In this document: one piece after another, positions 29,331 through 49,440 of the stretch
How the letters are laid out: each line of letters begins with the position of its first letter
How positions within the stretch are numbered: position 1 is the stretch's first letter
Source: Rhizobium rhizoryzae
Lineage (GTDB): Bacteria; Pseudomonadota; Alphaproteobacteria; Rhizobiales; Rhizobiaceae
DNA length: 64,000 nt
Direction of reading: 5' to 3'
Assembly: GCF_011046895.1 (NCBI RefSeq)
Contig: NZ_CP049249.1
Coordinates: 310,001 to 374,000, forward strand
The notes under the pieces: model-generated
Told to the model about the DNA's origin: nothing
The model's database searches: none
Seen by the model: the letters and a program-made list of their open reading frames with translations, nothing else
Made by a program: the position numbers and the translations under genes

Positions 29331-30053
29331 ATGTTGCAGCGTCAGAAGGGGGTCGCCATCTGGCGGCAGATCGCGGATCGTATTCGCACAAACGTCTCTG
29401 CAGGCCTTTACGACCAGGCGGGCACTTTGCCGTCTGAAATGCAATTGGCGACGGAATTTGGCGTCAACCGCCACACCGTCCGCGCAGCGATTGCGGCGCT
29501 ATCAGACGAGGGCTTGTTGCTGGTGGAAAAGGGGAAGGGCACCCGCATTGCCCGCAAAGACCGCTTCGATTTTCCCATTAGTCCGCGCACGCGCTTCACG
29601 GCAGGTCTGGCGGATCAGGCACAGCAATTCAGCGGCGAACTCCTGCGGGAATGCATGGAACAAGCGGATGCCGAAGTGGCGACCTATCTCGGCTTATCGG
29701 TCGGTGCGGATGTCTGCCGGCTGGAAACGCGTCGTAGCGCTGACGGCCAGGCGGTGGGCCGCGCCATCACGTGGCTTCCAGGTCAGCGTTTCGCTGGCTT
29801 TGCTGAAGCTTTCAGGCGCAAACAGTCGATAACCAAAGCATTTTTGGATTTTGGCGTGACAGATTATCTACGCAAATCGACCGAGGTTTCCGCCGTCCAT
29901 GCCGATCAGGAGGATCTCGATATTCTGGGGCTTACGCCGGGCGCCATCATGCTGGTGACCCGATCCCTGAACACGGATCTCGCCGATCAGCCGATCCAGT
30001 ATTCCATCACCCGTTTTCCGGCGGATCGTGTTCAGTTCAGCATCCGATTCTGA
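29331..30053 (+). CDS. phnF: PhnF, GntR/HutC-family regulator of phosphonate genes
   Basis: Regulator of about 240 residues. The winged helix is at residues 5-70 (GVAIWRQIADRIRTNV, LPSEMQLATEFGVNRHTVRAAIAAL), then a UTRA domain with TRRSADGQAVGRAITWLP and the PhnF-typical C-terminus ADQPIQYSITRFPADRVQFSI. The start at 29331 is preferred because the two earlier ATGs (29283, 29316) would place the Pho box inside the gene; a GGGGTGG lies just upstream. It is divergent from phnG and likely represses the operon and itself. Confidence 0.9.
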   Translation: MLQRQKGVAIWRQIADRIRTNVSAGLYDQAGTLPSEMQLATEFGVNRHTVRAAIAALSDEGLLLVEKGKGTRIARKDRFDFPISPRTRFTAGLADQAQQFSGELLRECMEQADAEVATYLGLSVGADVCRLETRRSADGQAVGRAITWLPGQRFAGFAEAFRRKQSITKAFLDFGVTDYLRKSTEVSAVHADQEDLDILGLTPGAIMLVTRSLNTDLADQPIQYSITRFPADRVQFSIRF

Positions 30054-33197: not shown

Positions 33198-33265
33198 GGT
33201 ACACGTCCTGAGCAAGCTGGTTTGTTGCTCAAGAATGCGTTGAAGAGGAAGAAGTTCCGGTGAGG

Positions 33266-33953: not shown

Positions 33954-34036
33954 AGGGATTAATGAAAAGCCGATCCGTTGGGGATAAGCCCGAATGGGCA
34001 ATGATGCGGACGGCGCATGAAATGCAGGAGGCCCAA

Positions 34037-34714
34037 ATGGAATTGTCGTCGCTCACCGCTCGTCAACTGTATGAGCAGGCCAAGGCCAACCCTACGCGCA
34101 AGCGGTTCGGATTTGGAAAAAAGCCGATGCTGATCAACATAGATCTGCAATGCGCCTATACCAGCCTCGGCGAATTCGTAACGGCCTATGAGACTGATCC
34201 CAAGCAGCTGGACTATGTGAATACACTTTCCGGTCTGGCGCGGGAAAAGGGTTTGCCTGTCACCTGGACTTATGTGGCCTATATGGAATCCGGTGAGGAT
34301 TGCGGCGTGTGGGGCACCCGGACAAATACGCCGGACTCTCTGCAGAACATCAAGGTTGGCTCGCGTCGCGCAGAGTTCGATCCGCGTCTGAAGATCGACC
34401 ATGTGAAAGACATCATCATCAATAAGCGCATGGCCTCGCCCTTCCATGAAACCAATCTGCAATCGCTGATGGTTTGGCACCAGTGTGACACGGTGGTGCT
34501 GACGGGTGGCTCAACATCTGGCTGCGTGCGTGCTTGCGTGGTGGATTCCATTTCCCGTGGCTATCGCGTTATCGTTCCGGAAGAATGCGTGGCCGACAAG
34601 CATGAAAGCCCGCACTTCGCCAACCTTTATGATATCGCGATCAAATACGGCGACGTGATCCCGGTAGCGGATGCCATTGCCTGGTACGAGGCCTATCAGC
34701 CGGAGGCGCGCTGA
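34037..34714 (+). CDS. Isochorismatase-fold cysteine hydrolase (half-amide or N-carbamoyl amidohydrolase-like)
   Basis: Amidohydrolase of 225 residues. The catalytic triad of the family is present: Asp36 in INIDLQCAY, Lys130 in INKRMASPF and Cys163 in TSGCVRACVVD. The GG-STSGC-VR pattern is that of N-carbamoylsarcosine amidase and maleamate amidohydrolase (NicF). The ATG at 34037 follows AGGAGG; an upstream frame to 33962 overlaps the promoter. It is first in a long plus-strand unit and one base from the PuuE-like gene, so it likely releases ammonia from the product of those hydrolases. Confidence 0.85.
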   Translation: MELSSLTARQLYEQAKANPTRKRFGFGKKPMLINIDLQCAYTSLGEFVTAYETDPKQLDYVNTLSGLAREKGLPVTWTYVAYMESGEDCGVWGTRTNTPDSLQNIKVGSRRAEFDPRLKIDHVKDIIINKRMASPFHETNLQSLMVWHQCDTVVLTGGSTSGCVRACVVDSISRGYRVIVPEECVADKHESPHFANLYDIAIKYGDVIPVADAIAWYEAYQPEAR

Positions 34715-34715
34715 T

Positions 34716-35657
34716 ATGTCTGCCGAACCGATGAAATCCGATCTTGGCCTCTACGATTATCTTCCGTGGCCAAACCGCCCGAAGATCGTCTGGCCTGGTA
34801 ACAAAAAGATCGCGGTGTGGATCGCCCCGAACATCGAATTCTACGAGTATAACCCTCCGAACAATCCGACCCGCACGCCGTGGGCGCGACCAAACCCGGA
34901 TGTGTTGCAGTATTCGCACCGCGACTATGGCAACCGTGCGGGCTGGCAGCGGATGATGGCAGCGATGGATCGCGCTGGTTTCCGCGGGTCCGTTTCTCTG
35001 AACGTTGCGCTCTGCGATCACCATCCGGAGATTATCAAGGCCTGCGCCGATCGCGGCTGGGAGTTTTTCTCCCACGGCATCTACAACACCCGCTATGTCT
35101 ACAATCTCGATATTGAGCAAGAGCGGGAAATCATCCGCGATGCTTTCGATACGGTGCGCAAGCATACGGGGCAGGAACTGGCGGGCTGGCTTTCGCCGGC
35201 GCTTTCCAACAATTTCTGGACCATGGATATCCTGTCAGAGGCGGGCATTCAGTACACCTGCGACATGTTCCACGATGACCAGCCGATGCCGGTCAAGGTG
35301 AAGTCTGGCAAGTTGATCTCAATGCCCTATTCGCTCGAGATGAATGACGTGATCGTCTATAATACGCAAAAGGTCACGCCGCGCCACTATGGCGAAATCA
35401 TCAAACGGCAGTTCGACCAGCTTTACAAGGAAGGTGATGAGAGCGGCACCGTCATGTGCATTCCGTTGCATCCTTATCTCGTTGGTCAGCCGCATCGTAT
35501 CGACGCCTTTGCCGAAGCTATTGAATATATCGCAGGTCACGACGGTGTCTGGCAGACGACGGGTCGCGAGATTGCAGCCGCCTATCACTCCACCGGGGCC
35601 TATGACGCGATGAGCGCGGCGATTGCTGCGCATAATAACGGGAAGGAGACACGCTGA
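34716..35657 (+). CDS. Polysaccharide-deacetylase-fold hydrolase, PuuE/allantoinase-like (1)
   Basis: NodB-fold protein of 313 residues in the PuuE-like branch that opens cyclic amides rather than deacetylating sugars. Branch markers are YSHRDYGNRAGWQRM (about 66-80), FFSHGIYN (about 116-123), AGWLSPALS and CIPLHPYLVGQPHRI near the C terminus. The canonical TFDDG metal motif is absent, as in PuuE. It is the first of two adjacent paralogues and overlaps the second by one base (TGATG). A GGAGG precedes its ATG within the previous gene. Confidence 0.85.
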   Translation: MSAEPMKSDLGLYDYLPWPNRPKIVWPGNKKIAVWIAPNIEFYEYNPPNNPTRTPWARPNPDVLQYSHRDYGNRAGWQRMMAAMDRAGFRGSVSLNVALCDHHPEIIKACADRGWEFFSHGIYNTRYVYNLDIEQEREIIRDAFDTVRKHTGQELAGWLSPALSNNFWTMDILSEAGIQYTCDMFHDDQPMPVKVKSGKLISMPYSLEMNDVIVYNTQKVTPRHYGEIIKRQFDQLYKEGDESGTVMCIPLHPYLVGQPHRIDAFAEAIEYIAGHDGVWQTTGREIAAAYHSTGAYDAMSAAIAAHNNGKETR

Positions 35658-36589
35658 TGTCGATGCCCGAGGATTATCTGAAATATCCTGAGCGCCACTA
35701 TGGCATGGATCACGACCGCTACGACTGGAGCGACCTGTTTCAGCGTGCTCCGATCGTTTGGCCAAACGGCGCGCGCATTGCGCTTTCCATCGTCACGCAT
35801 GTGCAGCACTTTCCACTCGATATGCCCTCGAAGCCGTTCAAGGCTCCGGGCGCACTTTCGATGCCCTATCCGGATTTTCGCTATTACACCAACCGCGATT
35901 ATGGCAATCGCGTCGGCATCTTCCGCATTCTGAGGCTGCTGGGCGAGAAGGGATTGAAGGCAAGCTTTGCCGTCAATGGCATTATCGCCAATCGCTATCC
36001 GGCGCTGCTGGACGCAGTGGTTGAAGGCGGGCACGAGGTGGTCGCCCACGGACTCGATATGGGCAAGGTGCACCATTCCGGTCTGTCCGAAGAGGACGAA
36101 AACGCCATCATCGCCGAAGCGCTTGGCCTGTTGCGGCAAGCCAGCGGCCAGAAGGTTGAAGGCTGGCTTTCTCCGGGCCGCGCGCAAGGGTTCAATACGC
36201 CGGATCTCCTGGCGAAGAACGGCGTGACCTATGGCCTCGATTGGGCGAACGACGATCTGCCTTACGAGATGCGTACGAAGAACGGCGTGCTGATTGCCAT
36301 GCCCATGGCCTATGAGACCGACGACCGGGTGGTCGCGGATGAATACTTCCAGTCCGAAGCGGATTGGGTTCAGCAGGTCAAGGATCGCTTTGATGTGCTC
36401 TATCGCGAAAGCGCTGATTATGGCGGTCGCGTGATGAGCCTGCCGATCCACAGTTGGGTTTCCGGCATGCCATACCGCGTCGAATATCTGCGGGAAGTGC
36501 TTGATTACATTCTTTCGCACGAGGGCGTGTGGAACGCGCCGGCTGGCGAAATCTGTGCCGCTTTCATGAAGGCTGGTCAGCCAGCCTGA
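35657..36589 (+). CDS. Polysaccharide-deacetylase-fold hydrolase, PuuE/allantoinase-like (2)
   Basis: Second PuuE-like hydrolase, 310 residues, co-linear with the first over its length: YTNRDYGNRVGIFRI (about 73-87), VVAHGLDMGKVHHSG (with two His more than its neighbour in this motif), EGWLSPGRAQGF and SLPIHSWVSGMPYRVEYL. Divergence is substantial, so the two are either heteromeric subunits or enzymes for different rings. It is translationally coupled to gene 1. Followed 63 bases later by the aconitase-family pair. Confidence 0.85.
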   Translation: MSMPEDYLKYPERHYGMDHDRYDWSDLFQRAPIVWPNGARIALSIVTHVQHFPLDMPSKPFKAPGALSMPYPDFRYYTNRDYGNRVGIFRILRLLGEKGLKASFAVNGIIANRYPALLDAVVEGGHEVVAHGLDMGKVHHSGLSEEDENAIIAEALGLLRQASGQKVEGWLSPGRAQGFNTPDLLAKNGVTYGLDWANDDLPYEMRTKNGVLIAMPMAYETDDRVVADEYFQSEADWVQQVKDRFDVLYRESADYGGRVMSLPIHSWVSGMPYRVEYLREVLDYILSHEGVWNAPAGEICAAFMKAGQPA

Positions 36590-36652: not shown

Positions 36653-38059
36653 ATGGCGCATATGAATGCACCACGAACAATGCTGGCCAAAATCTGGGAT
36701 GAGCATGAGATATTGCGTCATCCTTCCGGCCCCTCATTGCTCTATATCGACCGGGACATGATCCATGAAGGCAGCTTTCATGCGTTTGCCGACCTGAAGC
36801 GGCGTGGATTGAAGCCGCGCCGACCCAAGCAGATTTTCGGCGTGGCGGATCACTATGTCCCGACGCTTGGCCGCACCTCCAAGGATGCTGCCAGCCCGGC
36901 CATTGCGCGTATGATCGATACGTTCGACGAGAACATGGAATGGGGCGGTGTTCGCCATTTCGGTCTCTCCAGCCGGTCCCAGGGTATCGTGCATGTGGTT
37001 GCGCCGGAACAGGGCATTACGCTTCCCGGCCTGACCATAGTCTGCTCCGACAGCCATACGTCGACGCAAGGGGCACTGGGTGCGATTGCCTTCGGCATCG
37101 GCCAGTCTGAAAACGCGCATGTACTTGCCACACAGGCCATCTGGCAGTTGCGCCCGAAAACCATGCGAGTCACGATCAATGGCACGCTGGGGCAGGGCGT
37201 TACCGCAAAGGACGTGATGCTGGCGCTGATTGCCAAGATTGGTGCTGCCGGTGCTGGTGGTCATGCCATAGAATTCGCAGGACAGGTCGTCCGGGACATG
37301 TCCATTGAAGGGCGGCTGACGCTCTGCAACATGTCCATCGAGGCGGCAGCCCGCTTCGGCATGGTGGCACCGGATGAGACGACGTTCGCCTATGTGCGGG
37401 GCCGAAACTTTGCGCCGAACGAGCAGGAGTGGGACGCAGCAGTCAACCACTGGCGTCAGCTGGTGAGCGATGATGATGCGGTGTTCGATCGGGAAGTGGT
37501 GCTCGAAGGCGCTGATATTCCGCCGATGGTGACCTGGGGCACGAGCCCGGAAGATGCGGTTTCCATCGAGGGCCGCGTGCCGGATCCATCCACCTTCGAC
37601 AATGCGGACAAACGCAAGGCCGCGATCAAGTCTTTGGAATATATGGAGCTTGCGCCGGGAACAGAGCTTTCCGGCCTGAAGCTCGACAAGGTGTTTATCG
37701 GCTCCTGCACCAACAGCCGGATCGAGGACCTGCGTGCGGCAGCTGCCATCCTCAAGGGGCGCAAGGCAAAGATTCAGGCGATCGTTGTTCCTGGTTCAAC
37801 CCAGGTGAAGGAACAGGCTGAGGCAGAGGGCATCGCAGCGATTTTCCGCGAGGCAGGTTTTGAATGGCGCGATTCCGGCTGTTCCATGTGCGCTGCCATG
37901 AATGGCGATGTGGTTGGCCCCGGCGAGCGTTGTGCTTCCACCTCTAACCGCAACTTCGTGGGTCGACAGGGACCGGGTGCACGAACGCATCTGGTTAGCC
38001 CTGCCATGGCCGCTGCCGCTGCCATTACAGGCTGTCTGACAGACGTTCGGCGGGTGTGA
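36653..38059 (+). CDS. Aconitase-family hydratase large subunit (LeuC/DmdA-like)
   Basis: Iron-sulfur dehydratase large subunit of 468 residues, LeuC length. Cluster cysteines are in IVCSDSHTSTQG (about 127-138), FIGSCTNSRIEDLR (about 344-357) and SGCSMCAAMNGD (about 404-415). CNMSIEAAARFGMVAPDE is LeuC-like. By sequence it could be 3-isopropylmalate dehydratase, but no leuA or leuB lies nearby and a lyase of the dimethylmalate-lyase family follows, so hydration of another 2,3-substituted maleate is more likely. Pairs with the small subunit ten bases downstream. Confidence 0.85.
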   Translation: MAHMNAPRTMLAKIWDEHEILRHPSGPSLLYIDRDMIHEGSFHAFADLKRRGLKPRRPKQIFGVADHYVPTLGRTSKDAASPAIARMIDTFDENMEWGGVRHFGLSSRSQGIVHVVAPEQGITLPGLTIVCSDSHTSTQGALGAIAFGIGQSENAHVLATQAIWQLRPKTMRVTINGTLGQGVTAKDVMLALIAKIGAAGAGGHAIEFAGQVVRDMSIEGRLTLCNMSIEAAARFGMVAPDETTFAYVRGRNFAPNEQEWDAAVNHWRQLVSDDDAVFDREVVLEGADIPPMVTWGTSPEDAVSIEGRVPDPSTFDNADKRKAAIKSLEYMELAPGTELSGLKLDKVFIGSCTNSRIEDLRAAAAILKGRKAKIQAIVVPGSTQVKEQAEAEGIAAIFREAGFEWRDSGCSMCAAMNGDVVGPGERCASTSNRNFVGRQGPGARTHLVSPAMAAAAAITGCLTDVRRV

Positions 38060-38069
38060 GGAGATGGTG

Positions 38070-38684
38070 ATGAAGGCTTTTGTCAAGGAAACCTCCACCG
38101 TTGTCGCCGTCCCCGGCGTGAATTGCGATACGGACCAGATCATCCCCGGCCGTTTTCTGAAAGCAGACCGTGCGCAGGGTTACGGCCAGTTTCTGTTTCA
38201 CGACATCCGCCGGAATGAGGCAGGTGAGCTTGATCCTGCTTTCCCTTTGAACAGGGAAGGTGCCGAGCGTTCGACCATCCTTCTGGTCGAGGATAATTTC
38301 GGCTGCGGATCGTCGAGAGAGGGTGCGGTCTATGCGCTGGTGGACCACGGCATTCGTGCGGTGATTGGACCGAGCTTTGGTGACATCTTCTTCAATAACG
38401 CGCTGAAGAACGGGCTTGTGCCGGTTCGCTTGCCCGCGGAACACTGCGATGAACTTGCGGATTATCTCGCGCGCTTTCCTGATGCCGAAGTGACGGTTGA
38501 TCTTGAGAATTCCGAACTCGTTCTGCCGGGAAATCTGGGCCGTTATCCCATCGTCATCGACGCCTTTGCAAGGGAATGCATTTTGCAGGGTCTCGACGAG
38601 ATCGAGATGACCTTCACCTACATGGAAAAAATCAAGGCGTTCGAAACAGAACGAATGGCTTCGCATGCCTGGCTGGCCCGTTGA
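38070..38684 (+). CDS. Aconitase-family hydratase small subunit (LeuD/DmdB-like)
   Basis: Swivelling-domain subunit of about 204 residues, matching LeuD length. Landmarks are NCDTDQIIPGRFLK (about 20-33), LLVEDNFGCGSSREGAVYALVDHGI (starting near 75) and FGDIFFNNALKNGLVPVRL. The second ATG (38070) is preferred because GAGGAG is at proper spacing; the first ATG (38064) abuts that site. Forms a heterodimer with the preceding large subunit. Substrate not decided by sequence. Confidence 0.85.
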   Translation: MKAFVKETSTVVAVPGVNCDTDQIIPGRFLKADRAQGYGQFLFHDIRRNEAGELDPAFPLNREGAERSTILLVEDNFGCGSSREGAVYALVDHGIRAVIGPSFGDIFFNNALKNGLVPVRLPAEHCDELADYLARFPDAEVTVDLENSELVLPGNLGRYPIVIDAFARECILQGLDEIEMTFTYMEKIKAFETERMASHAWLAR

Positions 38685-38739: not shown

Positions 38740-39957
38740 ATGAGCTACAAGATTGATCGCCGCGACCTGTTGAAGGTATCCGGCGCACTGGTTGCAGGCC
38801 TTGCCGCACCTTCCATCCTGCGTGCACAAACATCCACCATCAAGGTTGGCGTGATCGAGCCGCTGACGGGTAACCTTGCCTATAACGGCACCCAGAGTGC
38901 TGCCGGCGCAAAGTTTGCCGCAGAAGCAATCAACGCTGCCGGCGGTATCAAGAGCATGGGTGGCCGCAAGATCGAATTGGTTGTCGTGGATGCACAGAGC
39001 CGTCCGGAAGCCGCAGCCTCCGGCGTCGATACCCTCGTTCAGGCAGGCGCCTGCGCTTTCACCGGTGCAACCGCTTCGGCTCTCGGTCTTGCCTCATCCC
39101 AGGCTGCTGCGAAATACAATCTTGCTCAGGTCTTCTCGATCGGTACGGCTGAAACCGTCGTATCTCGCGGCCTACCAAACGTCTTCCGCTTCACGCCGGG
39201 TGTGAACAAGTGCACAAGTGTGGCGCTTGAAAACCTGAAGCTGCTCAACCAGGGCGCAGGCAATCCGGTAAAGACTGCAGCCATCGTTCACGAAGATGGA
39301 CCTTTCGGTTCGAACATGGCGAAGATTCTGGCCGAACAGCTTCCGAAGCAGGGTATCCAGGTTGTCGAAACCATTTCGCACCCAACCCCACAGCGCGATT
39401 TCTCCAACATCGCGCTGCGCGTGAAGGCGTCGAAGGCCGATATTCTGATCCCGTCCAACTACTTGAACGAATACACTTTGATGGCGCGTGCGCTGAACCA
39501 GCAGCGTGTCGAGCTGAAGGCAATCTATTCGATCCTCGGTGGCGCGGCATCCAACATCAAGTTTGTTCGCGAGAATAATGAAGTCGCCCAATACGTGATG
39601 GACTGCAATCACTGGTACGATCCTACTAAGGATGAGTCCAAGGCACTGGCTGCCAAGGTGGCAGAGGCCAAGCTCGACCTGACCTATGACGTCATGGTGT
39701 CCTACGCCACCATCCAGGTCATTGCCGATGCACTCGAGCGCGCCGCGACGGATGATCGCCAGAAGATGATCGAAGCACTCGCTGCCTCGACATTCGACAA
39801 GTCGATCATGCCTTATGGCCCGACGAAGTTCGTCAACGGCGATAACGTGAACTCGCAGCCGGTCAACACGCAGATCCGCGGCGAGAAGATCGAGCTCGTC
39901 TTCCCGAAGCAGTATGCAAGCGCAGAAGCCGTCTTCCCGATCCCGGCGAAGAAGTGA
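38740..39957 (+). CDS. LIV-type ABC transporter substrate-binding protein with Tat signal
   Basis: Periplasmic binding protein of 405 residues, leucine/amide class (Peripla_BP_6). A twin-arginine signal DRRDLLKVSGALVAGLAAPS (about 6-25) precedes mature TSTIKVGVIEPLTGNLAYNG. Blocks such as SQAAAKYNLAQVF and VHEDGPFGSNMAKIL follow. Amide-class proteins bind amino acids, amides, urea and aromatic acids, so this is the entry point for the compound degraded by the locus. A stem-loop follows and then four transporter genes. Confidence 0.9.
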   Translation: MSYKIDRRDLLKVSGALVAGLAAPSILRAQTSTIKVGVIEPLTGNLAYNGTQSAAGAKFAAEAINAAGGIKSMGGRKIELVVVDAQSRPEAAASGVDTLVQAGACAFTGATASALGLASSQAAAKYNLAQVFSIGTAETVVSRGLPNVFRFTPGVNKCTSVALENLKLLNQGAGNPVKTAAIVHEDGPFGSNMAKILAEQLPKQGIQVVETISHPTPQRDFSNIALRVKASKADILIPSNYLNEYTLMARALNQQRVELKAIYSILGGAASNIKFVRENNEVAQYVMDCNHWYDPTKDESKALAAKVAEAKLDLTYDVMVSYATIQVIADALERAATDDRQKMIEALAASTFDKSIMPYGPTKFVNGDNVNSQPVNTQIRGEKIELVFPKQYASAEAVFPIPAKK

Positions 39958-39965
39958 TGTGATCC

Positions 39966-39996
39966 CGCCTCCGGTCAACAGCATTGGCCGGAGGCG
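39966..39996 (+). other. Stem-loop between binding-protein gene and livH-like gene
   Basis: CGCCTCCGG (39966-39974) pairs perfectly with CCGGAGGCG (39988-39996) around 13 bases, just after the stop codon. Position suits mRNA stabilisation of the binding-protein segment or partial attenuation. Confidence 0.6.
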
Positions 39997-40025
39997 TTCT
40001 TCCTGAGACGGAGAGGCGAGCCCTG

Positions 40026-40892
40026 ATGTCGAGTCTGATCTTTCCCGCTGTGTTGAGCGGCCTGATGATGGGAGCAGTCTATGCGCTGGTGGCGCTGGGC
40101 CTGACCCTCATTTACGGCGTGCTCCACATCATCAATTTTGCGCATGGAAGCCTGCTGATGCTGGCACTCTATGCGGTTTATTTTCTTTGGTATCATCTGG
40201 GCATCGATCCCTATTTGGCGATACCGATCGTACTGCCAGCCTTCTTCGCACTGGGCTATGCGCTACAACGTGGATTGATTGCGCCGATGAGCAGCGGCTC
40301 CGAGCAGAATGTTCTGCTGATTACGCTCGCCGTTTCGATGATCATCGACAACCTCGCGCTTTACTTCTGGACTTCGAATACGCGTACCGCCGATATCGCC
40401 TATGCCTATGACACAGTTGAGATCCTCGGCGCCTTTCTGCCGCTCGGTCGTGTGATCGCTTTCTGTGCAGCGATTGCCGTTGCTCCGCTTCTGTGGTGCT
40501 TCATGGCCTACACGAAAACCGGTTCTGCCATTCGCGCGGTTGCCATCGAAAAGCGCGGCGCCGAGCTCGTCGGCATTGATGTGAACCACACCTATGCCAT
40601 CTGCTTCGGCATTGGCACTGCCTGCGTGGCGCTGGCTGCCTGCCTTCTGCTGCCGACCTTCTACATCACCCCTCAGGTTGGCTATACCTTCGTACTCGTT
40701 GCCTTCACCACAGTTGTTCTGGGTGGCATGGGCAGTCTGCCAGGAGCGCTGATTGCAGGTCTGTTGCTGGGTGTTATCGAATCCCTTTGCGGCCTGTTCC
40801 TGGGTGAGAGCCTTGGCCAGATCGGCATCTTCCTCGCCTTCATCCTCATCCTTCTGTTCAAACCGTCAGGTCTTCTGGGGAGGGCGCGTTGA
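40026..40892 (+). CDS. LIV-type ABC transporter permease (LivH-like)
   Basis: Permease of 288 residues with about eight membrane helices. LivH markers are GALYAL-like MGAVYALVALGLTLIYGVLHIINFAHG (starting near residue 12), RAVAIEKRGAELVGIDVN (ABC contact loop) and VVLGGMGSLPGALIAGLLLGV. The ATG at 40026 follows GGAGAGG; the longer frame to 39984 overlaps the stem-loop. Its TGA overlaps the next ATG. Confidence 0.9.
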   Translation: MSSLIFPAVLSGLMMGAVYALVALGLTLIYGVLHIINFAHGSLLMLALYAVYFLWYHLGIDPYLAIPIVLPAFFALGYALQRGLIAPMSSGSEQNVLLITLAVSMIIDNLALYFWTSNTRTADIAYAYDTVEILGAFLPLGRVIAFCAAIAVAPLLWCFMAYTKTGSAIRAVAIEKRGAELVGIDVNHTYAICFGIGTACVALAACLLLPTFYITPQVGYTFVLVAFTTVVLGGMGSLPGALIAGLLLGVIESLCGLFLGESLGQIGIFLAFILILLFKPSGLLGRAR

Positions 40893-41872
40893 TGAAATCG
40901 CAATCCATCGGCCAGCTGGCGCTTGCCGCCGCCGCTGTCGCCTATCTCATTGGTGTCTATTTTGCCTCATCTCCGGTCTGGATGGGCTTCACCATCAATG
41001 CCTTGATCATCGCCGTCGTGGCCATGTCATGGAACATTACCGGCGGTTTCGGAGGTCTTTCCTCCTTCGGTCATGCCGCGCTCTACGGCACGGGTGCCTA
41101 TGCCTCGGCAATCCTTCAGGTGAAGTATGGCGTGAATGCCTGGGTCGGCTTTGCCGCTGGCATTCTGGCTGGTGCCGCCATGGGTGCCTTCATTGGGGCG
41201 CTGGCGTTCCGCTATGGTCTCCGCGGCTCCTATTTCGCACTCGTCACCCTGGCATTCGCTGAAGTGTTGCGTATCTGCGCGTCATCCTTCGAATTTTCCG
41301 GCGGTGGCAGTGGCCTTCAGCTGAAGCTCGCCCCCGGTCTTGCCAACCTGCAATTTGCAGATCGCACTGTCGTATACACCGCCTTGCTGGTGGTCGTCGC
41401 CGTGGTGATGATATTGACCGCACTCATCAAATATTCCCGCTTTGGCGCCTATCTGATCGCGGTGCGCGAGAATGAAGATGCAGCGCGCGCTCTGGGGATC
41501 GATACCTACCGCATCAAGGTTCAGGCCATGGCCATCTCGGGTGCCTTCGGTGGTCTGGCGGGCGTCCTTTACCTTCAGCTCTGGCTCTTCATCGACAGCA
41601 CCGTTGTCTATGGCAGCGCGGTTTCCGTGGAAGCGCTGATTGGCCCGATCATCGGCGGCGCTGGTACCGTCTGGGGTCCGCTGCTGGGAACGCTTGGTCT
41701 GCATCTGCTGGGCGAAGGTGCAAAGCACCTGTTGCCAAACGCACCGGGTCTGAACTTCGTGCTCTATGCTGTGGTGCTGATCTGTGCTTTGCGCTTCCTG
41801 CCGCAGGGTCTGGTCGGACTTGCAGGAAAATTTGGTGCCTTCACGAAGAAAAAGGAGGCAGACGATGCTTGA
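40892..41872 (+). CDS. LIV-type ABC transporter permease (LivM-like)
   Basis: Second permease, 326 residues, about ten membrane segments. LivM pattern: MSWNITGGFGGLSSFGHAALYGTGAYA near residue 45, GLRGSYFALVTLAFAEVLR near 110, and the contact loop AVRENEDAARALGIDTYRIK. The C-terminal PQGLVGLAGKFGAFTKKKEAD is basic. Overlaps the livG-like gene by eight bases. Confidence 0.9.
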   Translation: MKSQSIGQLALAAAAVAYLIGVYFASSPVWMGFTINALIIAVVAMSWNITGGFGGLSSFGHAALYGTGAYASAILQVKYGVNAWVGFAAGILAGAAMGAFIGALAFRYGLRGSYFALVTLAFAEVLRICASSFEFSGGGSGLQLKLAPGLANLQFADRTVVYTALLVVVAVVMILTALIKYSRFGAYLIAVRENEDAARALGIDTYRIKVQAMAISGAFGGLAGVLYLQLWLFIDSTVVYGSAVSVEALIGPIIGGAGTVWGPLLGTLGLHLLGEGAKHLLPNAPGLNFVLYAVVLICALRFLPQGLVGLAGKFGAFTKKKEADDA

Positions 41873-42605
41873 GGTTCGCAATCTCTCGAAGAGCTTCGGC
41901 GGCCTGAAGGCCGTCACCGATGCCTCGCTGGATGTTCCGGAAGGTTCGATCGTCGGCCTGCTGGGACCGAACGGTGCTGGCAAGACGACCTGCTTCACCA
42001 TGATAGCTGGCTTCACCAAGGCCGATGAAGGCACGGTGCGCTTCAAGGGCCAGGATATCACCGGCCTGCCGCCGCACCGCATCTGTGCACTCGGCATGAT
42101 CCGCACATTCCAGATCGTGCAGCCCTTTGCCGGTTTGACGGTGCAGGAGAACATTGCGGTCGGAGCCTATCTCCACCACCACAATCGCAACGAAGCCATG
42201 TCTGTGGCACGCGATGTGGGCAAACGTCTGGGCATGGGCGCGATGCTGGATCGGCCCGCGTCCTCGCTGACCATAGCAGGCCGCAAGCGTCTGGAACTGG
42301 CACGCGCGCTGGCGACAGGGTCGAAGCTTCTGCTTCTGGACGAGGTCATGGCAGGGCTCATTCCCTCTGAGATCACCGAGATCGTCGGCATCATCCGTCA
42401 GATCCGCGACGAGGGGCATACGTTCCTGATGATTGAACACGTAATGCAGGCAGTGATGAGCCTTGCGGAAACGGCTTACGTGCTGAACCAGGGCAAGATG
42501 ATTGCCCACGGTCCGCCACGTGAACTGGTGCGAGATCCATCCGTCGTGGAAGCCTATCTCGGCCATGGTGCCGCCGCACGCCTGCAGGAGGAAAATCATG
42601 CTTGA
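41865..42605 (+). CDS. LIV-type ABC transporter ATP-binding protein (LivG-like)
   Basis: ATPase of 246 residues. Walker A GPNGAGKTT (about 35-43), GMIRTFQIVQPFAGLTVQEN (Q-loop region typical of LivG), signature LTIAGRKRLELARALA (a degenerate LSGG) and Walker B LLLLDEVMAGL, where the common EPxAG reads EVMAG. Start at 41865 follows AAAGGAGG. Overlaps the livF-like gene. Confidence 0.9.
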   Translation: MLEVRNLSKSFGGLKAVTDASLDVPEGSIVGLLGPNGAGKTTCFTMIAGFTKADEGTVRFKGQDITGLPPHRICALGMIRTFQIVQPFAGLTVQENIAVGAYLHHHNRNEAMSVARDVGKRLGMGAMLDRPASSLTIAGRKRLELARALATGSKLLLLDEVMAGLIPSEITEIVGIIRQIRDEGHTFLMIEHVMQAVMSLAETAYVLNQGKMIAHGPPRELVRDPSVVEAYLGHGAAARLQEENHA

Positions 42606-43299
42606 GATTTCCGGCATCAAGGCGGGTTATGGCTCGATGTCCGTTCTTCAGGGCATCGACATGCGGGTGGAAGCGGGCGAGATCGTCGCGCTCCTCGGTT
42701 CCAACGGTGTCGGCAAGACGACGTTGAACAATGTCATTTCCGGCTTCATTCGCCCGACGGCGGGCAGCGTTTCCTTCAAGGGCGTGACGCTGACCGGCAA
42801 GAAACCGCGCGACGTGGTTTCCATGGGCATTGCCCATGTACCGGAAGGCCGCAAGATTTTTCCGAACCTCTCGGTCGCAGAGAACCTGAAGCTCGGTGCA
42901 TTCCGTCGAGCTTCCGGCAATGTGAAGAAGAATTTCGAGCATATCTGCGCGATCTTCCCACGCCTCAAAGAGCGCCTGGATCAGTTGGCAGGCACGCTTT
43001 CCGGTGGTGAGCAGCAGATGCTGGCTATCGGTCGCGGCATGATGTCCGAGCCGGAACTGATCATCCTGGACGAACCGTCACTCGGGCTGTCCCCGCTGAT
43101 GGTCGAGGAAATGTTCGGGCTGATTACCAAGATCAATGCCGAAGGCGTTGCGGTTTTGCTGGTCGAGCAGAACGTCATGCAATCGCTGACGGTCGCAAAA
43201 CGTGCCTATGTGATCGAGCAAGGCCGGTTCGTGATGCAGGGGGAGGCCGCCAAACTACTGGCCGATCCGCAACTGCGTCAGGCCTATCTCGGAATGTGA
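42598..43299 (+). CDS. LIV-type ABC transporter ATP-binding protein (LivF-like)
   Basis: ATPase of 233 residues. It begins MLEISGIKAGYGSMSVLQGID, then Walker A GSNGVGKTTLNN, IAHVPEGRKIFPNLSVAENL (the LivF Q-loop block), signature LSGGEQQMLAIGRGMM and Walker B LIILDEPSLGLSP. The ATG at 42598 has AGGAGGA upstream and overlaps the end of the livG-like gene. Completes the importer. Confidence 0.92.
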   Translation: MLEISGIKAGYGSMSVLQGIDMRVEAGEIVALLGSNGVGKTTLNNVISGFIRPTAGSVSFKGVTLTGKKPRDVVSMGIAHVPEGRKIFPNLSVAENLKLGAFRRASGNVKKNFEHICAIFPRLKERLDQLAGTLSGGEQQMLAIGRGMMSEPELIILDEPSLGLSPLMVEEMFGLITKINAEGVAVLLVEQNVMQSLTVAKRAYVIEQGRFVMQGEAAKLLADPQLRQAYLGM

Positions 43300-43364: not shown

Positions 43365-44258
43365 ATGTCTCTTACCCGGACCCAACGCCTGCGACAGGCT
43401 CTCGCAGGCGAACGAGCCCTCATGGCTCCTGGCGTGGTCGATGCAATGTATGCACGCCTTGTTGCTGAGGCTGGCTTTCAGGCCATGTATATGACTGGCG
43501 CTGGCACGTCTGCCACGCGGCTCGGTTATCCTGATGTCGGTCTGCTGACCATGACCGAAATGGTGGATAACGCTACGCGGATCGCCGATGCTTCAGATGT
43601 TCCACTGATTGCCGATGCTGACAACGGTTTTGGCGGTCCCCTGAATGTGCGTCGCGCCATCCAGCTTTACGAGCGTGGCGGCGTGGCAGCCGTACATCTG
43701 GAAGATCAGGTGCTGCCGAAACGTTGTGGCCATCTGGCGGGCAAGCAATTGATCTCTGCGGAAGACATGGTCGCCAAGGTGAAGGCTGCCGTCGATGCAC
43801 GTATTGACGAGAATTTCGTCGTGATTGCCCGCACGGATGCGCTGGCACTTCATGGACGAAACGCCGCCTTTGACCGCGCGGAGATGTACCGCGAGGCCGG
43901 AGCCGACGTGATCTTCGTTGAAAGCCCCGGCCCGGAAGATCTTCCGCACATCGCGCCACGCTTCCCAGGTATTCCGCTGCTCTACAACATGGCGACCTCG
44001 GGCAAGACGCCGTTCCTGACCCGCTCTGAAATCGAAGCGCTTGGGTTCAAGCTGATCATCTATCCGAACTGGCTTTTGCTTTCGGCCTGCGAAGCGGCCC
44101 GCAAGACGCTGGAAGTTCTAAAGACCGAGGAAACGATCGCTTCGATCGCACCTAACGTCATGAACTTCAAGGAGTTCTTTGACATGGCCCGCATGCCGGA
44201 AATTCAGGAGCTGGAAGCGCGGTACGGCACACCGGAAGCAAACCGCACGACCTACTGA
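43365..44258 (+). CDS. Isocitrate lyase/PEP mutase-family C-C lyase (2-methylisocitrate or 2,3-dimethylmalate lyase-like)
   Basis: TIM-barrel lyase of 297 residues. The active-site loop KRCGH lies at 119-123 and the metal-binding IADADNGFGG at 82-91; HLEDQ (111-115) and IARTDALA follow. KRCGH marks true lyases such as PrpB and dimethylmalate lyase rather than PEP mutase. Combined with the LeuCD-like pair upstream it suggests hydration of a substituted maleate followed by aldol cleavage to pyruvate or another 2-oxoacid plus a carboxylate. Confidence 0.85.
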   Translation: MSLTRTQRLRQALAGERALMAPGVVDAMYARLVAEAGFQAMYMTGAGTSATRLGYPDVGLLTMTEMVDNATRIADASDVPLIADADNGFGGPLNVRRAIQLYERGGVAAVHLEDQVLPKRCGHLAGKQLISAEDMVAKVKAAVDARIDENFVVIARTDALALHGRNAAFDRAEMYREAGADVIFVESPGPEDLPHIAPRFPGIPLLYNMATSGKTPFLTRSEIEALGFKLIIYPNWLLLSACEAARKTLEVLKTEETIASIAPNVMNFKEFFDMARMPEIQELEARYGTPEANRTTY

Positions 44259-44282
44259 CCAGATGAGCGGAGGAGAATGATC

Positions 44283-45686
44283 ATGGCCGTACTTTCCGCT
44301 CAAGGCGTTGAGTTCGCTTTCGAAGTTCCAGTCGTCGTCGTCGGGGCAGGGGCTTGCGGGCTGGTGGCGGCCCTTGCCGCTCATGATGAGGGGCAGGAGG
44401 TTCTGGTTCTGGAGCGGGATGAGAACCCGACCGGCTCCACCTCGCTTTCCGCAGGTCTCATTCCGGCACCCTGCACCAGGCTGCAGAAAGAGGCCGGTAT
44501 CGAGGACAGTCCGGAACTCTTCGCACAGGATCTCGTCGCCAAGACGCATGATCACACGCCTTACGATCAAGCACTGGCGGCAGCCAAGGCGGCGGGGCCG
44601 ATGATCGACTGGCTGATGGAGAAGCATCAGGTCGAGTTCGAGCTGGTGACAGGCTTTCTCTATCCCGGCCATTCGCGCCTACGCATGCACGGGCCGAAAA
44701 GCCGTACAGGTGCGGATCTTGAGCAGAACCTGCTTTCTGCAGTTTCCAATGCGGGCATCGATCTTATCACCGGGGCGTCGGTCGAGGACCTGTATGTGGA
44801 CGCCGCTGGCCGCGTGGCCGGCGTTCGTTTCCGCAGACCTGACGGCGCGCAGGAAATGCTGGGCTGCAAGGCGCTGGTTCTGGCCTGCTGCGGCTTTGCA
44901 GGCGATGCTGAAATGGTTCGCCGATACATTCCAGAGATTGCGGATGCGGAATGCTGCGGTCACCTTTCCAACACCGGGGATGCCGTGAAATGGGGCGAAG
45001 CACTCGGTGCGGGACTGGCCGATATGGGCGCCTATCAGGGACACGGCTCTGTGGCGCATCCGCATGGTCTGCCGCTGACCTGGGCTGTCATCACCAAAGG
45101 CGGAATCCTGCTCAATCTGGAAGGTCGCCGCTTCTCGAACGAAATGCGCGGCTATTCAGAACATGCGGCGGAAGTGGCATCCCAGCCGGGGAATGTGGCT
45201 TGGGATATATACGGTTCCGGCGGCGAGGAGGCCGCCATGGGCTTCCACGACTATCGGGAATTGCGCAAGCTGGGCGTGGTCAAGACCGCCAACAGCCTAG
45301 AAGAGCTGGCCACAGTGACGGGCCTTCCCGTCGAGGCGGTCGCGGCTGAGCTGGAGGCGGTTGAACGCGCCGCGCAGACGGGTGAGCCGGATCGCTTCGG
45401 GCGGAAATTTTCGCAGGAGCAACTGCTCCAGCCACCTTATTTCGCTGTCAAGGTGAATGGTGCCTTGTTCCACACGCAGGGCGGTCTGGTGATTGATGCC
45501 GAGGCCAGAGTGCTGCGCGCGGACGGCACGCCGCTTCCGAACCTGATGGCGGGTGGCGGTGCGGCCCGTGGTGTCTCTGGCGATTCCAACTACGGTTATC
45601 TGTCCGGCAACGGCCTGTTGAGTGCGACGGCCTTTGGCCGGCTGGCGGGCATCAGTGCAGCGAGGATTGCAGCAGCAACCGCGTGA
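44283..45686 (+). CDS. FAD-dependent oxidoreductase, fumarate reductase/succinate dehydrogenase flavoprotein-like
   Basis: Flavoenzyme of 467 residues. The FAD motif VVVVGAGACGLVAALAAHDEG is near residue 16; TGSTSLSAGLIPAP follows, and the C-terminal GGGAARGVSGDSNYGYLSGNGLLSATAFGRLAG closes the FAD site, as in soluble fumarate reductases and ketosteroid dehydrogenases. The second ATG (44283) has GGAGGAG at better spacing than the first (44277). It may reduce or oxidise a C=C bond in an unsaturated dicarboxylate of the pathway. Confidence 0.8.
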   Translation: MAVLSAQGVEFAFEVPVVVVGAGACGLVAALAAHDEGQEVLVLERDENPTGSTSLSAGLIPAPCTRLQKEAGIEDSPELFAQDLVAKTHDHTPYDQALAAAKAAGPMIDWLMEKHQVEFELVTGFLYPGHSRLRMHGPKSRTGADLEQNLLSAVSNAGIDLITGASVEDLYVDAAGRVAGVRFRRPDGAQEMLGCKALVLACCGFAGDAEMVRRYIPEIADAECCGHLSNTGDAVKWGEALGAGLADMGAYQGHGSVAHPHGLPLTWAVITKGGILLNLEGRRFSNEMRGYSEHAAEVASQPGNVAWDIYGSGGEEAAMGFHDYRELRKLGVVKTANSLEELATVTGLPVEAVAAELEAVERAAQTGEPDRFGRKFSQEQLLQPPYFAVKVNGALFHTQGGLVIDAEARVLRADGTPLPNLMAGGGAARGVSGDSNYGYLSGNGLLSATAFGRLAGISAARIAAATA

Positions 45687-45721: not shown

Positions 45722-46495
45722 ATGAAGAAGGTCATGGTCATCGTACCATTCCCGATGGGCGAGGAGGATCTTGCCCGCAGGCAGGCGCAGATGCAGGCGG
45801 TGGATCTTGGACCGGGCATCGAATTCCACTACCGTCCGGTTCGTGTTGGCCCGAAAAACTATTCCAGCCAGCACGATATGGCACTGGCCGACTTCTCCAT
45901 TCTGGATGCCGGGCTGGATGCTGAAAGCCAGGGCTTCGACGCCGTCTGCATCGACACCATGTCCGACAGCGGTATGTCAATGCTGCGCTCGGTGCTGAAA
46001 ATTCCGGTCATTGCGCCGGGGCGCCACTCCATGCTGGTCGCGCAGATGCTGGGCGACAAGTTCTCCATCCTGATGATGTGGGACCGCTGGAAGATGCTTT
46101 ACACCAAGACGCTGGGCGAACTCGGCATGGAGCACAAATGCGCCTCCATGCGCTCCATCGGGGTGACACCGGATAACAAGAGCCTGCTATCCGGCAAGGA
46201 AGACCAGGTGTTTCCGCTTCTGCTGGATGCAGCGCGCAAATGTGTGGAAGAGGATGGCGCGCAGGTGCTGATCCTCGGCTCAACGACAATGCATGAAGCG
46301 CATTCCTGGCTTTCGGAACGCATTGGCGTGCCGGTCATCAATCCGGGACCGCTGACCTACAAGCTGGCTTCCATCGCACTCGATCTGAAGCTGACGCACA
46401 GCAAGGCCACATGGCCTGCACCGCTTTCACCAAAGCACGACATGATCCGCGCCATCGGTGCGGCTGGAGCCGACTATCTGGAGGCAAACCCATGA
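45722..46495 (+). CDS. Asp/Glu/hydantoin racemase-fold protein lacking both catalytic cysteines (1)
   Basis: Protein of 257 residues with the Asp/Glu racemase fold (N-terminal MKKVMVIVPFPMG, C-terminal NPGPLTYKLA). In racemases and maleate isomerase the two catalytic Cys lie in ACxxDPG and LGCxxM-type motifs. Here these read DTMSDSG (Thr79) and LGSTTM (Ser187). A Cys at 76 lies three positions too early. The start at 45722 follows TGGAGGA. It overlaps its paralogue by ATGA. A cofactor-free racemisation is therefore unlikely; function unknown. Confidence 0.8.
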   Translation: MKKVMVIVPFPMGEEDLARRQAQMQAVDLGPGIEFHYRPVRVGPKNYSSQHDMALADFSILDAGLDAESQGFDAVCIDTMSDSGMSMLRSVLKIPVIAPGRHSMLVAQMLGDKFSILMMWDRWKMLYTKTLGELGMEHKCASMRSIGVTPDNKSLLSGKEDQVFPLLLDAARKCVEEDGAQVLILGSTTMHEAHSWLSERIGVPVINPGPLTYKLASIALDLKLTHSKATWPAPLSPKHDMIRAIGAAGADYLEANP

Positions 46496-47268
46496 CCCGC
46501 ATTCTGATCATCGTCCCATTCGCGCTCGACGAAGAGGGCGTGAAGAACCGTCAGGCTCAATCGCGCTATGTACCGCTGCCGGCAGACTGGGAATTGACCT
46601 ATCGCCCCGTCACCTGCGGGCCGACATCCTTCATGTCGCCGCATGACTGGGGTTTGATGGATCTCGCAATTTTCGAAGCAGGGTGTCGCGCGGAAGCGGA
46701 AGGCTTCGATGCGGTCTGCATCGATACTATGTCTGATAGCGGCATGGTGATGTTGCGTTCCGTTCTCTCGATCCCCGTGATTGGGGCGGGCAAAGCCTCG
46801 ATGCTCTACGCCCTGACGCTCGGCGGAAAGTTTTCCGTACTCGCCCAGTGGGAACCGGCATTGCCACGCTATCGCAAGGCCATTCGTGAATATGGTTTCG
46901 ATCGTCAGTGTGCATCGGTCCGCAGCTTTGATCAGCCGCCGGATTTCGCCAATCTGCTGGATGGCAAGGAAGACAAGGTATTTCCACGCATGCGCGACGT
47001 GGCGATGCGCTGCATCGAAGAAGATGGCGCGGAGGTTATCTGCCTCGGTTCAACGACCATGCATCAGGCAGGCGAATATCTGGCGGCGAACCTGCCGGTT
47101 CCGGTCGTCAATCCTGGCCCACTGACCTACAAGCTGGTGGAAACCTTCCTTGCGCTGGGTCTGAAACATGGCCGCGATGTGTATCCGGCACCTGTCGAGC
47201 CACGGCTTGATATGCTGCATGCCATGATGAAGGCAGGCGCGGCGGTCGAGCAAGCAACGAAGGGTTGA
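46492..47268 (+). CDS. Asp/Glu/hydantoin racemase-fold protein lacking both catalytic cysteines (2)
   Basis: Paralogue of the preceding protein, 258 residues, with the same substitutions at the same positions: Thr79 in DTMSDSG and Ser187 in LGSTTM. Cys76 and Cys140 are also shared. The two align without gaps through about residue 215, so they are a tandem duplication that kept length and motif while diverging elsewhere. They may form a heterodimer. The start overlaps gene 1 and follows CTGGAGGC. Followed four bases later by an MmgE/PrpD gene. Confidence 0.8.
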   Translation: MTRILIIVPFALDEEGVKNRQAQSRYVPLPADWELTYRPVTCGPTSFMSPHDWGLMDLAIFEAGCRAEAEGFDAVCIDTMSDSGMVMLRSVLSIPVIGAGKASMLYALTLGGKFSVLAQWEPALPRYRKAIREYGFDRQCASVRSFDQPPDFANLLDGKEDKVFPRMRDVAMRCIEEDGAEVICLGSTTMHQAGEYLAANLPVPVVNPGPLTYKLVETFLALGLKHGRDVYPAPVEPRLDMLHAMMKAGAAVEQATKG

Positions 47269-47272: not shown

Positions 47273-48676
47273 ATGGACGACGCTGCCACAGCTCTCGCTT
47301 CTGCTGCGGCAGCGACCCGCTTCAAATCTCTGCCGCTGGAGGTCCGTGCGACCTATCGCGACTACGTTCTCGATACTTTGGCGGTCATGGCTGCGGGTGC
47401 AGCACACCCGGAACTGATGCGAACGCGCCGTGCATTTTCAGCGAGCGATGGGCAGGGCAAAGCCTCTGTTGTCGGGATGCCGGAAACGGTTCCGGCGGCT
47501 GTCGCAGGCTTTCTGAATGGCGCTGCGATGACCGTTCTGCAGCTTCAGGATGGGCATCGCAGAGCGCGCGGTCATCCCATGAGCCATGTGTTGCCAGCGG
47601 CACTGGCGATTGCAGAAGAAACCGGAGCCAGCGGGCAAGCGATGTTTGACGCTGTGGTTGCTGGCTACGAGGTTTGCGCCAGAATAGGCGCCTCGCTAGG
47701 CGGAATGCAGCCCCTGCTGCATGACACGGGTACATTTGGCTGCATCGGCGCAGCTGTTGCGGCAGCGTGTCTTCTCACGCAGGGCGAAGACGAGAGCGTC
47801 CGTGTCGATGTCCTCGAAGCTGCGATAGGCAACGCCGCTGCCGTTGCGCTGTTTCCCTTCCGCGATACGTGCATGGAAGGCGCGACCGGCCATCATCTCT
47901 TCGTTGGACTGGGCGTTCAAAACGGCATCGTTGCTGCTCGAAGCAGTTTGGCAGGCCTGAAGCCATCGGAGCGAACCCTCGAACGGTTCTTTGGACCGCG
48001 TGCTGGCGAGTGTTTCGATCTCCATCTTCTCACGTCCGGAATCGGCAGGGATGGACAATGGTCGACTTACGAGATTGAGCAAGCCTATCTCAAGTGGCAT
48101 CCTGTCTGTGCTCATCTCGGGCCGATGCTGGACTGTTTCGAAGCGCTTCGAGCAAAGGTGGAAAGTCGCCCGCTCGCAGATATTACCGATGTGCGGATAG
48201 ACGTCTATTCGACTGCGCTGCAGTACGATTCATCAGCTCCGAGCAATGATCTGGCGGCGCGGTTCAGCTTCCGTCACGCGGCCGCCATCGCTCTCACATG
48301 TGGAGTGGTCCGGCATGATGCGTTTGGGACAAGCGTTTTGAGCGATCCGGACATCCAATCTATGGCGAAGAAGATCCGCATTGAAGCCGACCCAGGTTTC
48401 GATGCCCTATATCCGCAAAACCGCCCCTCACGCGTTACGATTTGGTGGAATGATGGCACCCAGGCGAGCGAACAGGTGCTCGTGCCAAGGGGCGATGGCG
48501 CGCGCCGACTGAGCAGGGTAGAGGTAGACCAGAAGGCCCTGCGACTGATCGAAGCCGTCTGGCCGCAGGATGCCTTCGATGAGCTTCGCGACCTTGTGGA
48601 CCAGGTTGTAACCGAAGTACCTGATGCCTTGGCGACACGTTTGGGCGCACTGATGCGTCGCCCTTTCCGCCTCTAA
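47273..48676 (+). CDS. MmgE/PrpD-family protein
   Basis: Protein of 467 residues of the 2-methylcitrate dehydratase/cis-aconitate decarboxylase family. Family blocks are DYVLDTLAVMAAGA (about 31-44), LQDGHRRARGHPMSHVLPAALAIAEE (with the active-site Asp-Gly-His), GYEVCARIGASL and YLKWHPVCAHLGPMLDC (KxHPxCxxxH equivalent). It probably dehydrates, isomerises or decarboxylates a tricarboxylate-like intermediate. Last gene of the plus-strand unit; its stop overlaps the convergent gntR gene by four bases. Confidence 0.85.
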   Translation: MDDAATALASAAAATRFKSLPLEVRATYRDYVLDTLAVMAAGAAHPELMRTRRAFSASDGQGKASVVGMPETVPAAVAGFLNGAAMTVLQLQDGHRRARGHPMSHVLPAALAIAEETGASGQAMFDAVVAGYEVCARIGASLGGMQPLLHDTGTFGCIGAAVAAACLLTQGEDESVRVDVLEAAIGNAAAVALFPFRDTCMEGATGHHLFVGLGVQNGIVAARSSLAGLKPSERTLERFFGPRAGECFDLHLLTSGIGRDGQWSTYEIEQAYLKWHPVCAHLGPMLDCFEALRAKVESRPLADITDVRIDVYSTALQYDSSAPSNDLAARFSFRHAAAIALTCGVVRHDAFGTSVLSDPDIQSMAKKIRIEADPGFDALYPQNRPSRVTIWWNDGTQASEQVLVPRGDGARRLSRVEVDQKALRLIEAVWPQDAFDELRDLVDQVVTEVPDALATRLGALMRRPFRL

Positions 48677-49440
48677 TTCCCTAACGAAAAATCCTTGCCG
48701 TCCTCTCTTTTGAGAGACACGCGATACTCATACCGGTCTGCGCAATAGAAGATTTCGGCGACGTAGAACGGTTTCAGATCTGCATTGAAGAACAACCGGT
48801 TGACGAGCATCAACGGTGCGCCGACAGGAATTTCCAGATGCTTGGCAGCGTAATCGTCGGCAAGGGTCGCAGTCAATGTCTGCTCGACCTGCTCGACTGT
48901 CGCGCCCGCCTCTTGCACGAGATCGATCATGTTGGTGGTCGCCAGATCTTGACGCTTCAGCGTCTGGCCGATTTCGGGCAGAAGATAGGCGATGGACAGG
49001 GAATAGGGTCGCTTGTCGAGGAAGCGGACACGCACCGCTCGAACCAGCGGGGTTGTTGGCGAAACACCCATTTGCGCGCAGATCCGCGGCGGGGCCTCGC
49101 CCAGATCAAGGCTGATAACCTTCAGCCGCGTGCTCTGGCCGACCGCATTGAGATAGCTGAACAGACCATTGATGTTCGACACCACGGCACGGTTGAGCTT
49201 GTTTTCTTTCGTGCGGTCGTTGACGAAGGTGCCGCGTCCGCGCGTGCGCGTGACCAGCCCTTCAGCCGTCAACATTTCCATCGCCTTGCGGATTGTGATG
49301 CGACTGACCGAAAAACTCTCGGAGAGTTCCGCCTCGCTCGGGACTGCAACATCACTGGGATAATAGCCCTTGATGATCCGCTCACGCATGACGGCATAGA
49401 TGCGATGGTAGAGCGGCGTTGGCGAATGGATTTCAGCCAT
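48673..49440 (-). CDS. GntR/HutC-family regulator with UTRA domain
   Basis: Regulator of 255 residues. The winged helix (about 8-75) contains VPSEAELSESFSVSRITIRKAMEMLTAEGLVTRTRGRGTFV. The UTRA domain ends YVAEIFYCADRYEYRVSLKRE. It follows the dehydrogenase-like gene on the minus strand by 71 bases, and is tail-to-tail with the catabolic unit. It is the likely regulator of the whole locus; UTRA proteins usually bind the pathway substrate or an early intermediate. The ribosome-binding site is weak. Confidence 0.85.
   Translation of the reverse strand: MAEIHSPTPLYHRIYAVMRERIIKGYYPSDVAVPSEAELSESFSVSRITIRKAMEMLTAEGLVTRTRGRGTFVNDRTKENKLNRAVVSNINGLFSYLNAVGQSTRLKVISLDLGEAPPRICAQMGVSPTTPLVRAVRVRFLDKRPYSLSIAYLLPEIGQTLKRQDLATTNMIDLVQEAGATVEQVEQTLTATLADDYAAKHLEIPVGAPLMLVNRLFFNADLKPFYVAEIFYCADRYEYRVSLKREDGKDFSLGN

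Follow-up and report, generated by a model that had tools for sequence, protein, structure and literature searches.

Paired racemase-fold proteins with threonine and serine at both catalytic cysteine positions in a conserved operon of Rhizobium rhizoryzae

Two catalytic cysteines are the accepted hallmark of the cofactor-free Asp/Glu racemase superfamily. Allantoin racemase works beside ring-opening and amide hydrolases in a ureide or hydantoin pathway, hydantoin racemase accompanies hydantoinase and carbamoylase in known pathways, and maleate isomerase (Iso/NicE) accompanies the half-amidase/maleamate amidase NicF in nicotinate catabolism.

In the allantoin racemase of Klebsiella (KpAllR), the catalytic residues are Cys79 and Cys184 (PMC12661438). 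The fungal epimerase OpaE (9qbx), on the same allantoin-hydantoin racemase subfamily branch, requires a Cys90/Cys199 dyad, and its C199S and C90S/C199S mutants have at most 0.3% activity left (PMC12661438). In E. coli YgeA/EcL-DER (5ell) and in RacX, the first catalytic cysteine is replaced (Thr83 and Ala79, respectively) and the second is retained (Cys197 and Cys193); the C197S mutant of EcL-DER is inactive (PMC12838360). Arylmalonate decarboxylase (AMDase; Gly74/Cys188) shares the fold, has lost one cysteine and carries out a chemistry other than racemization, with Cys188 as its sole proton donor and with the characteristic motifs LMGTSLSF and ILLSCGGL (PMC4996985). Maleate cis-trans isomerase needs a nucleophilic first cysteine plus the second one. 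Here we compare with these systems two neighboring proteins, RacA and RacB, encoded in a 64,000-nucleotide stretch of the R. rhizoryzae genome (contig NZ_CP049249.1, positions 310,001 to 374,000), which is referred to as the window.

Two proteins and their catalytic positions

The first-pass annotation of the window had described two adjacent open reading frames as tandem Asp/Glu-racemase-fold proteins, and both lie where it placed them (Table 1). A GGAGG ribosome-binding sequence stands 5' of the RacA ATG, and the two genes overlap by 4 nt, the RacB ATG being located inside the RacA stop (ATGA). The proteins are 51% identical, and both are members of the Asp/Glu/hydantoin racemase superfamily of Pfam (PF01177), scoring 97.4 (RacA) and 101.1 bits (RacB) against a curated cut-off of 31 bits. 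Among the NCBIfam equivalogs for named amino acid or hydantoin racemases, none scored above its curated cut-off for either protein (RacA scored best with asp_race, 21.6 bits versus a cut-off of 93.1, and RacB with none), and a named NCBIfam racemase was therefore rejected as the identity of the pair. Proteins of this type are currently annotated as "aspartate/glutamate racemase family".

Table 1. Coordinates of the Rac pair, its catalytic-position codons and the genes of the operon (window numbering)
Feature	Position	Strand	Remarks
Cysteine hydrolase, isochorismatase fold	33962..34714	+	closest solved relatives N-carbamoylsarcosine amidohydrolases
PuuE-like hydrolase 1 (polysaccharide deacetylase family)	34716..35657	+	candidate ring opener
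PuuE-like hydrolase 2	35657..36589	+	
LeuC-like large subunit, aconitase-family hydratase	36653..38059	+	
LeuD-like small subunit	38064..38684	+	
Liv-type ABC importer (binding protein, two permeases, two ATPases)	38740..43299	+	conserved in relatives
Isocitrate lyase/PEP mutase family lyase	43365..44258	+	closest solved relative 2,3-dimethylmalate lyase (3fa3)
Fumarate-reductase-like (fumarate/urocanate-reductase-like) flavoprotein	44277..45686	+	directly upstream of RacA
RacA, Asp/Glu/hydantoin-racemase fold, Thr/Ser at the putative active site	45722..46495	+	257 aa; ORF, PF01177 match
RacA Thr79 codon (ACC)	45956..45958	+	aligns with catalytic Cys79 of KpAllR
RacA Ser187 codon (TCA)	46280..46282	+	aligns with catalytic Cys184 of KpAllR
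RacB, RacA paralogue, Thr/Ser at the putative active site	46492..47268	+	258 aa; ORF, PF01177 match
RacB Thr79 codon (ACT)	46726..46728	+	
RacB Ser187 codon (TCA)	47050..47052	+	
MmgE/PrpD family protein	47273..48676	+	closest solved relatives IDS-epimerase, cis-aconitate decarboxylase
GntR/UTRA regulator	48673..49440	-	convergent at operon end; in most orthologous loci

Both proteins carry the motifs DTMSDSG and LGSTTM, and they align with each other through both motifs without a gap, so that Thr79 and Ser187 occupy the same positions in RacA and RacB. The closest sequence relatives in the PDB are the allantoin racemases (approximately 23% identity), and in the alignment to KpAllR, Thr79 corresponds to Cys79 and Ser187 to Cys184. 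The two alignments confirm the earlier observation that both catalytic cysteines are replaced at identical positions in the two paralogues. Thus, the pair has neither the two cysteines of allantoin and hydantoin racemases nor those of maleate isomerase. It shares a threonine at the first position with EcL-DER, but has Ser187 (30 of 30 subfamily members) where EcL-DER and RacX retain cysteine, and DTMSDSG and LGSTTMH match neither the Gly74/Cys188 arrangement nor the motifs of AMDase. A further difference from KpAllR is a set of subfamily-specific residues: GKE at 158-160, W120 and TTMH at 188-191.

It had also been suggested that an offset cysteine, Cys76, might serve instead, and an alignment with Cys76 and Cys140 or Cys174 at the canonical catalytic positions had been named as counter-evidence to the replacement. 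With offset cysteines as catalysts, RacA and RacB would be ordinary hydantoin or aspartate racemases, and Cys76, Cys140 and Cys174 are indeed invariant across the RacA/RacB orthologues. However, none of them aligns with a catalytic position, valine, isoleucine or glycine stands at position 76 in many relatives, and none of the three reaches the 85% conservation threshold in the wider Thr/Ser group. As they fall outside the conserved set, they were rejected as replacement catalysts, and we consider this reading barely credible.

The AlphaFold2 models of RacA and RacB have mean pLDDT values of 85 and 84. The best fold match of the RacA model is KpAllR (Z 24.9, rmsd 2.6, 236 residues), and the match covers the entire chain, so the two-domain racemase fold extends over its full length. 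The same whole-chain fold is found in the KpAllR structures 3qvj and 3qvk (Z 24 to 25, 236-239 residues) and in Pseudomonas fluorescens AllR (5lfd), the closest chain being 3qvk, a form of KpAllR with serine at both cysteine positions. OpaE matches with Z 22.6, and aspartate racemases, AMDase and maleate isomerase match with Z 15 to 17 (maleate isomerase, 4fq7 and 2xed, with Z 16 to 17). In the model, Thr79 and Ser187 are located directly after strands 74-77 and 182-185, ahead of the next helix.

The resemblance to AMDase (3ixl, Z 17.3) raises the idea of a cofactor-free decarboxylase in which the hydroxyl set would form a carboxylate-binding oxyanion hole. AMDase also lacks the first cysteine (Gly74), and genes for UbiD-family and amidohydrolase-2 proteins are found near some Thr/Ser loci. 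However, the only proton donor of AMDase, Cys188, is serine in RacA and RacB, and the AMDase motifs have no match in either protein, making such a decarboxylase distinctly improbable.

Conservation and descent of the Thr/Ser group

A scan of genome contigs yielded 25 orthologous RacA-RacB loci in Rhizobiaceae, Phyllobacteriaceae and Paracoccaceae. Both motifs, in RacA followed by RacB, are present in 25 of the 25 tandems, the exceptions within them being S83G in two RacB proteins and T188I in one; conservation in all orthologous pairs excludes chance. The codons for Thr79 and Ser187 vary only synonymously, with three Thr79 codons and four Ser187 codons seen among the RacA orthologues alone. 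The serine codons include TCC and TCT, which are one base away from cysteine, and cysteine was never found there. For the most distant orthologue pairs, dN is about 0.1 and dS about 1, giving a dN/dS ratio of about 0.1. As judged from these substitution patterns, Thr79 and Ser187 are held by purifying selection, and sequencing error or recent decay was rejected on the grounds of the 25 orthologous pairs and this ratio.

Within Pseudomonadota, the phylum covered by the searches, wider relatives with 45 to 65% identity occur in other families and classes, and they are rare in one other class of Pseudomonadota (2 of 369 genomes). To describe conservation beyond the orthologues, 30 members with less than 85% identity were collected with a profile built from RacA and RacB, which favors motif-sharing sequences, although its lowest-scoring members still retain the motifs. 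In this set, Ser187, Thr188, Ser81, Asp82, Glu160 and Gln23 are found in 30 of 30 members, Lys159 and His191 in 29, and Thr79 in 27, with serine (two members) or alanine (one) in the remaining three.

In a maximum-likelihood tree, one branch separates all proteins with serine at the second position from all Cys/Cys proteins (support 98/91; recovered in 100% of the bootstrap trees), and the split persists (99/92) after the motif residues are masked and the longest branches dropped. The placement of two Thr/Cys proteins close to the Thr/Ser group is weakly supported (84/52). The second genes of the tandems (B) form one clade (96/99) inside the Thr/Ser group, with the first genes (A) on the other side, which points to a single old duplication within this group. 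As the RacA/RacB split falls within the Thr/Ser clade, the earlier suggestion of a distinct subfamily that lost its cysteines before the duplication is well supported.

The A-before-B order is retained in lineages that otherwise differ. This order, together with the degenerate second partners described below, strengthens the idea that the two proteins may form a heterodimer. A single Thr/Ser gene is present at many other loci, namely at approximately half of the Thr/Ser loci outside the orthologous operon. The tandem is thus just one of several arrangements, and a heteromer is not general in the group.

Replaced catalytic cysteines were also observed elsewhere in PF01177: Ala/Gly in L073, L086 and L090; Gly/Gln in L052 and L057; and Thr/Cys in L049 and L053. 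The superfamily thus seems to contain several cysteine-poor branches. In one bacterial family (L098-L104; genomes G029, G160, G258 and G336), a single genome can contain as many as seven genes that match the Thr/Ser profile; several lie in tandem, and some adjoin genes for UbiD, amidohydrolase-2 and AMP-ligase proteins.

Degenerate second partners

In a second operon type (e.g., in Neorhizobium petrolearium and Tistrella) and in Variovorax, RacA is intact and its partner is degenerate. Six such B partners, each encoded by the second gene of its pair, were found (L094, L095, L096, L114, L115 and L116). Jointly, they lack R20, Q23, Thr79, Ser81, W120, G158-K159-E160, T188 and H191; D78 and Ser187 are retained in one of the six (Variovorax), and T189 in two others. 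The N-terminal half is kept: residues 46-120 are still 48-57% identical to those of RacB. Both of the degenerate partners that were scanned can still be recognized as members of PF01177. The joint loss of these residues suggests that they may together form the active site, and the retention of the partner gene in spite of its degeneration suggests that the protein may serve a complex in a structural or regulatory capacity. These proteins offer a natural comparison and point to which residues to mutate.

True pseudo-subunits therefore exist among the B partners, and RacA and RacB themselves might be pseudo-enzymes: binding or regulatory subunits with a racemase fold and no catalysis. The absence of both catalytic cysteines and the closeness in fold to the double-serine form of KpAllR are consistent with this. 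On the other hand, few positions are as well conserved as the site residues, dN/dS is about 0.1, decay of the kind seen in the degenerate partners is absent from RacA and from RacB of the window, and a lone Thr/Ser gene is maintained at many loci. On balance, loss of catalysis in the pair is improbable.

The operon and a possible reaction

In the window, the operon extends from the cysteine hydrolase gene (33962) to the PrpD gene (48676). The genes other than the Rac pair are present in nearly all 25 orthologous loci. Besides the LeuCD pair, the genome has a further LeuC-type gene and an aconitase at other sites. Outside the orthologous set, the composition varies. The Rac pair is combined with HyuA/HyuB, a cysteine hydrolase and a tautomerase-like protein, or with a tautomerase only; hydantoinase genes stand in for PuuE in relatives, HyuA/HyuB being the ring opener in N. 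petrolearium. In Variovorax, the Rac genes are accompanied solely by those for a cysteine hydrolase, a transporter and two PuuE-like proteins. Genes for ring or amide hydrolases lie near 20 of 24 Thr/Ser loci versus 5 of 20 Cys-type loci, and the cysteine hydrolase gene near 11 of 24 versus 0 of 20, a contrast that is inflated because the neighbor queries were drawn partly from Thr/Ser loci. Opening a cyclic amide and removing the amide group are the tasks of the enzymes that recur beside the Rac pair, so the substrate of the pair is most likely the ring itself, the half-amide or the acid that results. In known pathways, the counterpart of the pair would be hydantoin racemase or maleate isomerase, and the operon logic is comparable to that of the latter.

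These results suggest that RacA and RacB belong to an uncharacterized group of enzymes that probably takes part in the degradation of a small nitrogen-containing ring compound. Our preferred reading, in which belief and doubt are evenly balanced, is that they are two subunits of a selected enzyme type of the allantoin/hydantoin-racemase branch, an isomerase or epimerase with a thiol-free site that functions in cyclic imide or hydantoin catabolism. The active site would be rebuilt from Thr79 and Ser187 together with R20, Q23, D78, S81, W120, G158-K159-E160, T188, T189, H191 and N207, and this conserved set is predicted to be near the substrate pocket. RacA and RacB would act as a heteromer that isomerizes or epimerizes a cyclic imide or hydantoin with a five-membered ring. 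Alternatively, the substrate would be the half-amide or diacid that the cysteine hydrolase and the PuuE-like enzymes (or HyuAB) produce from such a ring. Most likely, the hydroxyls of Thr79 and Ser187 would bind and polarize the substrate, and the proton would be moved by other members of the set, with K159, E160, H191 and D78 as candidates. The exact step and the substrate are guesses, and we hold little confidence in them. Particular substrates, such as tetrapyrrole-derived maleimides or N-methylhydantoin, were set aside, as the set of neighbors does not discriminate.

Serine at the second position abolishes or nearly abolishes racemization in OpaE and EcL-DER, making two-base proton transfer by hydroxyls alone unlikely. 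By analogy, simple two-base racemization by Ser/Thr is unlikely in RacA and RacB, and the OpaE serine mutants predict that the pair would be inactive in racemizing hydantoin or allantoin. The main rival to the thiol-free isomerase is covalent catalysis, with Ser187 as the nucleophile of a hydrolase, lyase or cis-trans isomerase, as in the succinyl-cysteine step of maleate isomerase. Unlike Thr79, Ser187 is never replaced in the 30 members, and in the model it opens a helix that follows a strand. In addition, the fold has a precedent for a covalent intermediate, the succinyl-cysteine (2xed), and the operon neighbors act on amides and, by homology, on unsaturated diacids. However, a serine at the equivalent position of EcL-DER gives an inactive protein (PMC12838360), any partner for a catalytic triad is putative, and the adjacent cysteine hydrolase would make an amidase redundant. 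A nucleophilic Ser187 is therefore unlikely.

If the thiol-free isomerase reading is followed further, the carbon skeleton could then pass to the fumarate-reductase-like flavoprotein, to LeuCD for hydration and to the dimethylmalate-lyase-like enzyme for cleavage. Judging from LeuCD and the downstream lyase, it would be converted to a 2-substituted malate before being cleaved. In its broadest and more tentative form, which we would sooner doubt than affirm, the proposal is that a thiol-free, Ser/Thr-centered subfamily with new chemistry, often an A/B heteromer, performs a key reaction of a pathway, so far undescribed, that leads from a cyclic imide or hydantoin to a 2-substituted malate and a central metabolite. 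If the proteins do work without thiols, the annotation "aspartate/glutamate racemase family" misleads, the superfamily includes a catalytic solution absent from the papers found, and the conserved operon is a testable route for cyclic imide or hydantoin breakdown. Neither a Thr/Ser group nor this operon was found in the published literature searched, which covers few subscription journals and makes this a weak absence.

Several minor observations concern the neighborhood. Variovorax (L116) shares the consecutive PuuE-like doublet (34716-36589), pointing to another obligate pair in this pathway. The second operon type also encodes a 163-aa tautomerase-like protein (L115, 12126-12617; L114, 12111-12602), whose gene adjoins those of the flavoprotein and RacA and is missing from the operon of the window. 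Upstream of the operon, the window contains genes resembling those for phosphonate C-P lyase (phn; 26185-29251, minus strand) together with a GntR-type regulator gene (29283-30053), all assigned by eye and not by profile. Next come a gene for a DUF1989 protein (30651-31532, minus strand), related to urea-amidolyase-associated proteins, and, beside it, one for an FAD-NAD(P)-binding protein (31578-33215).
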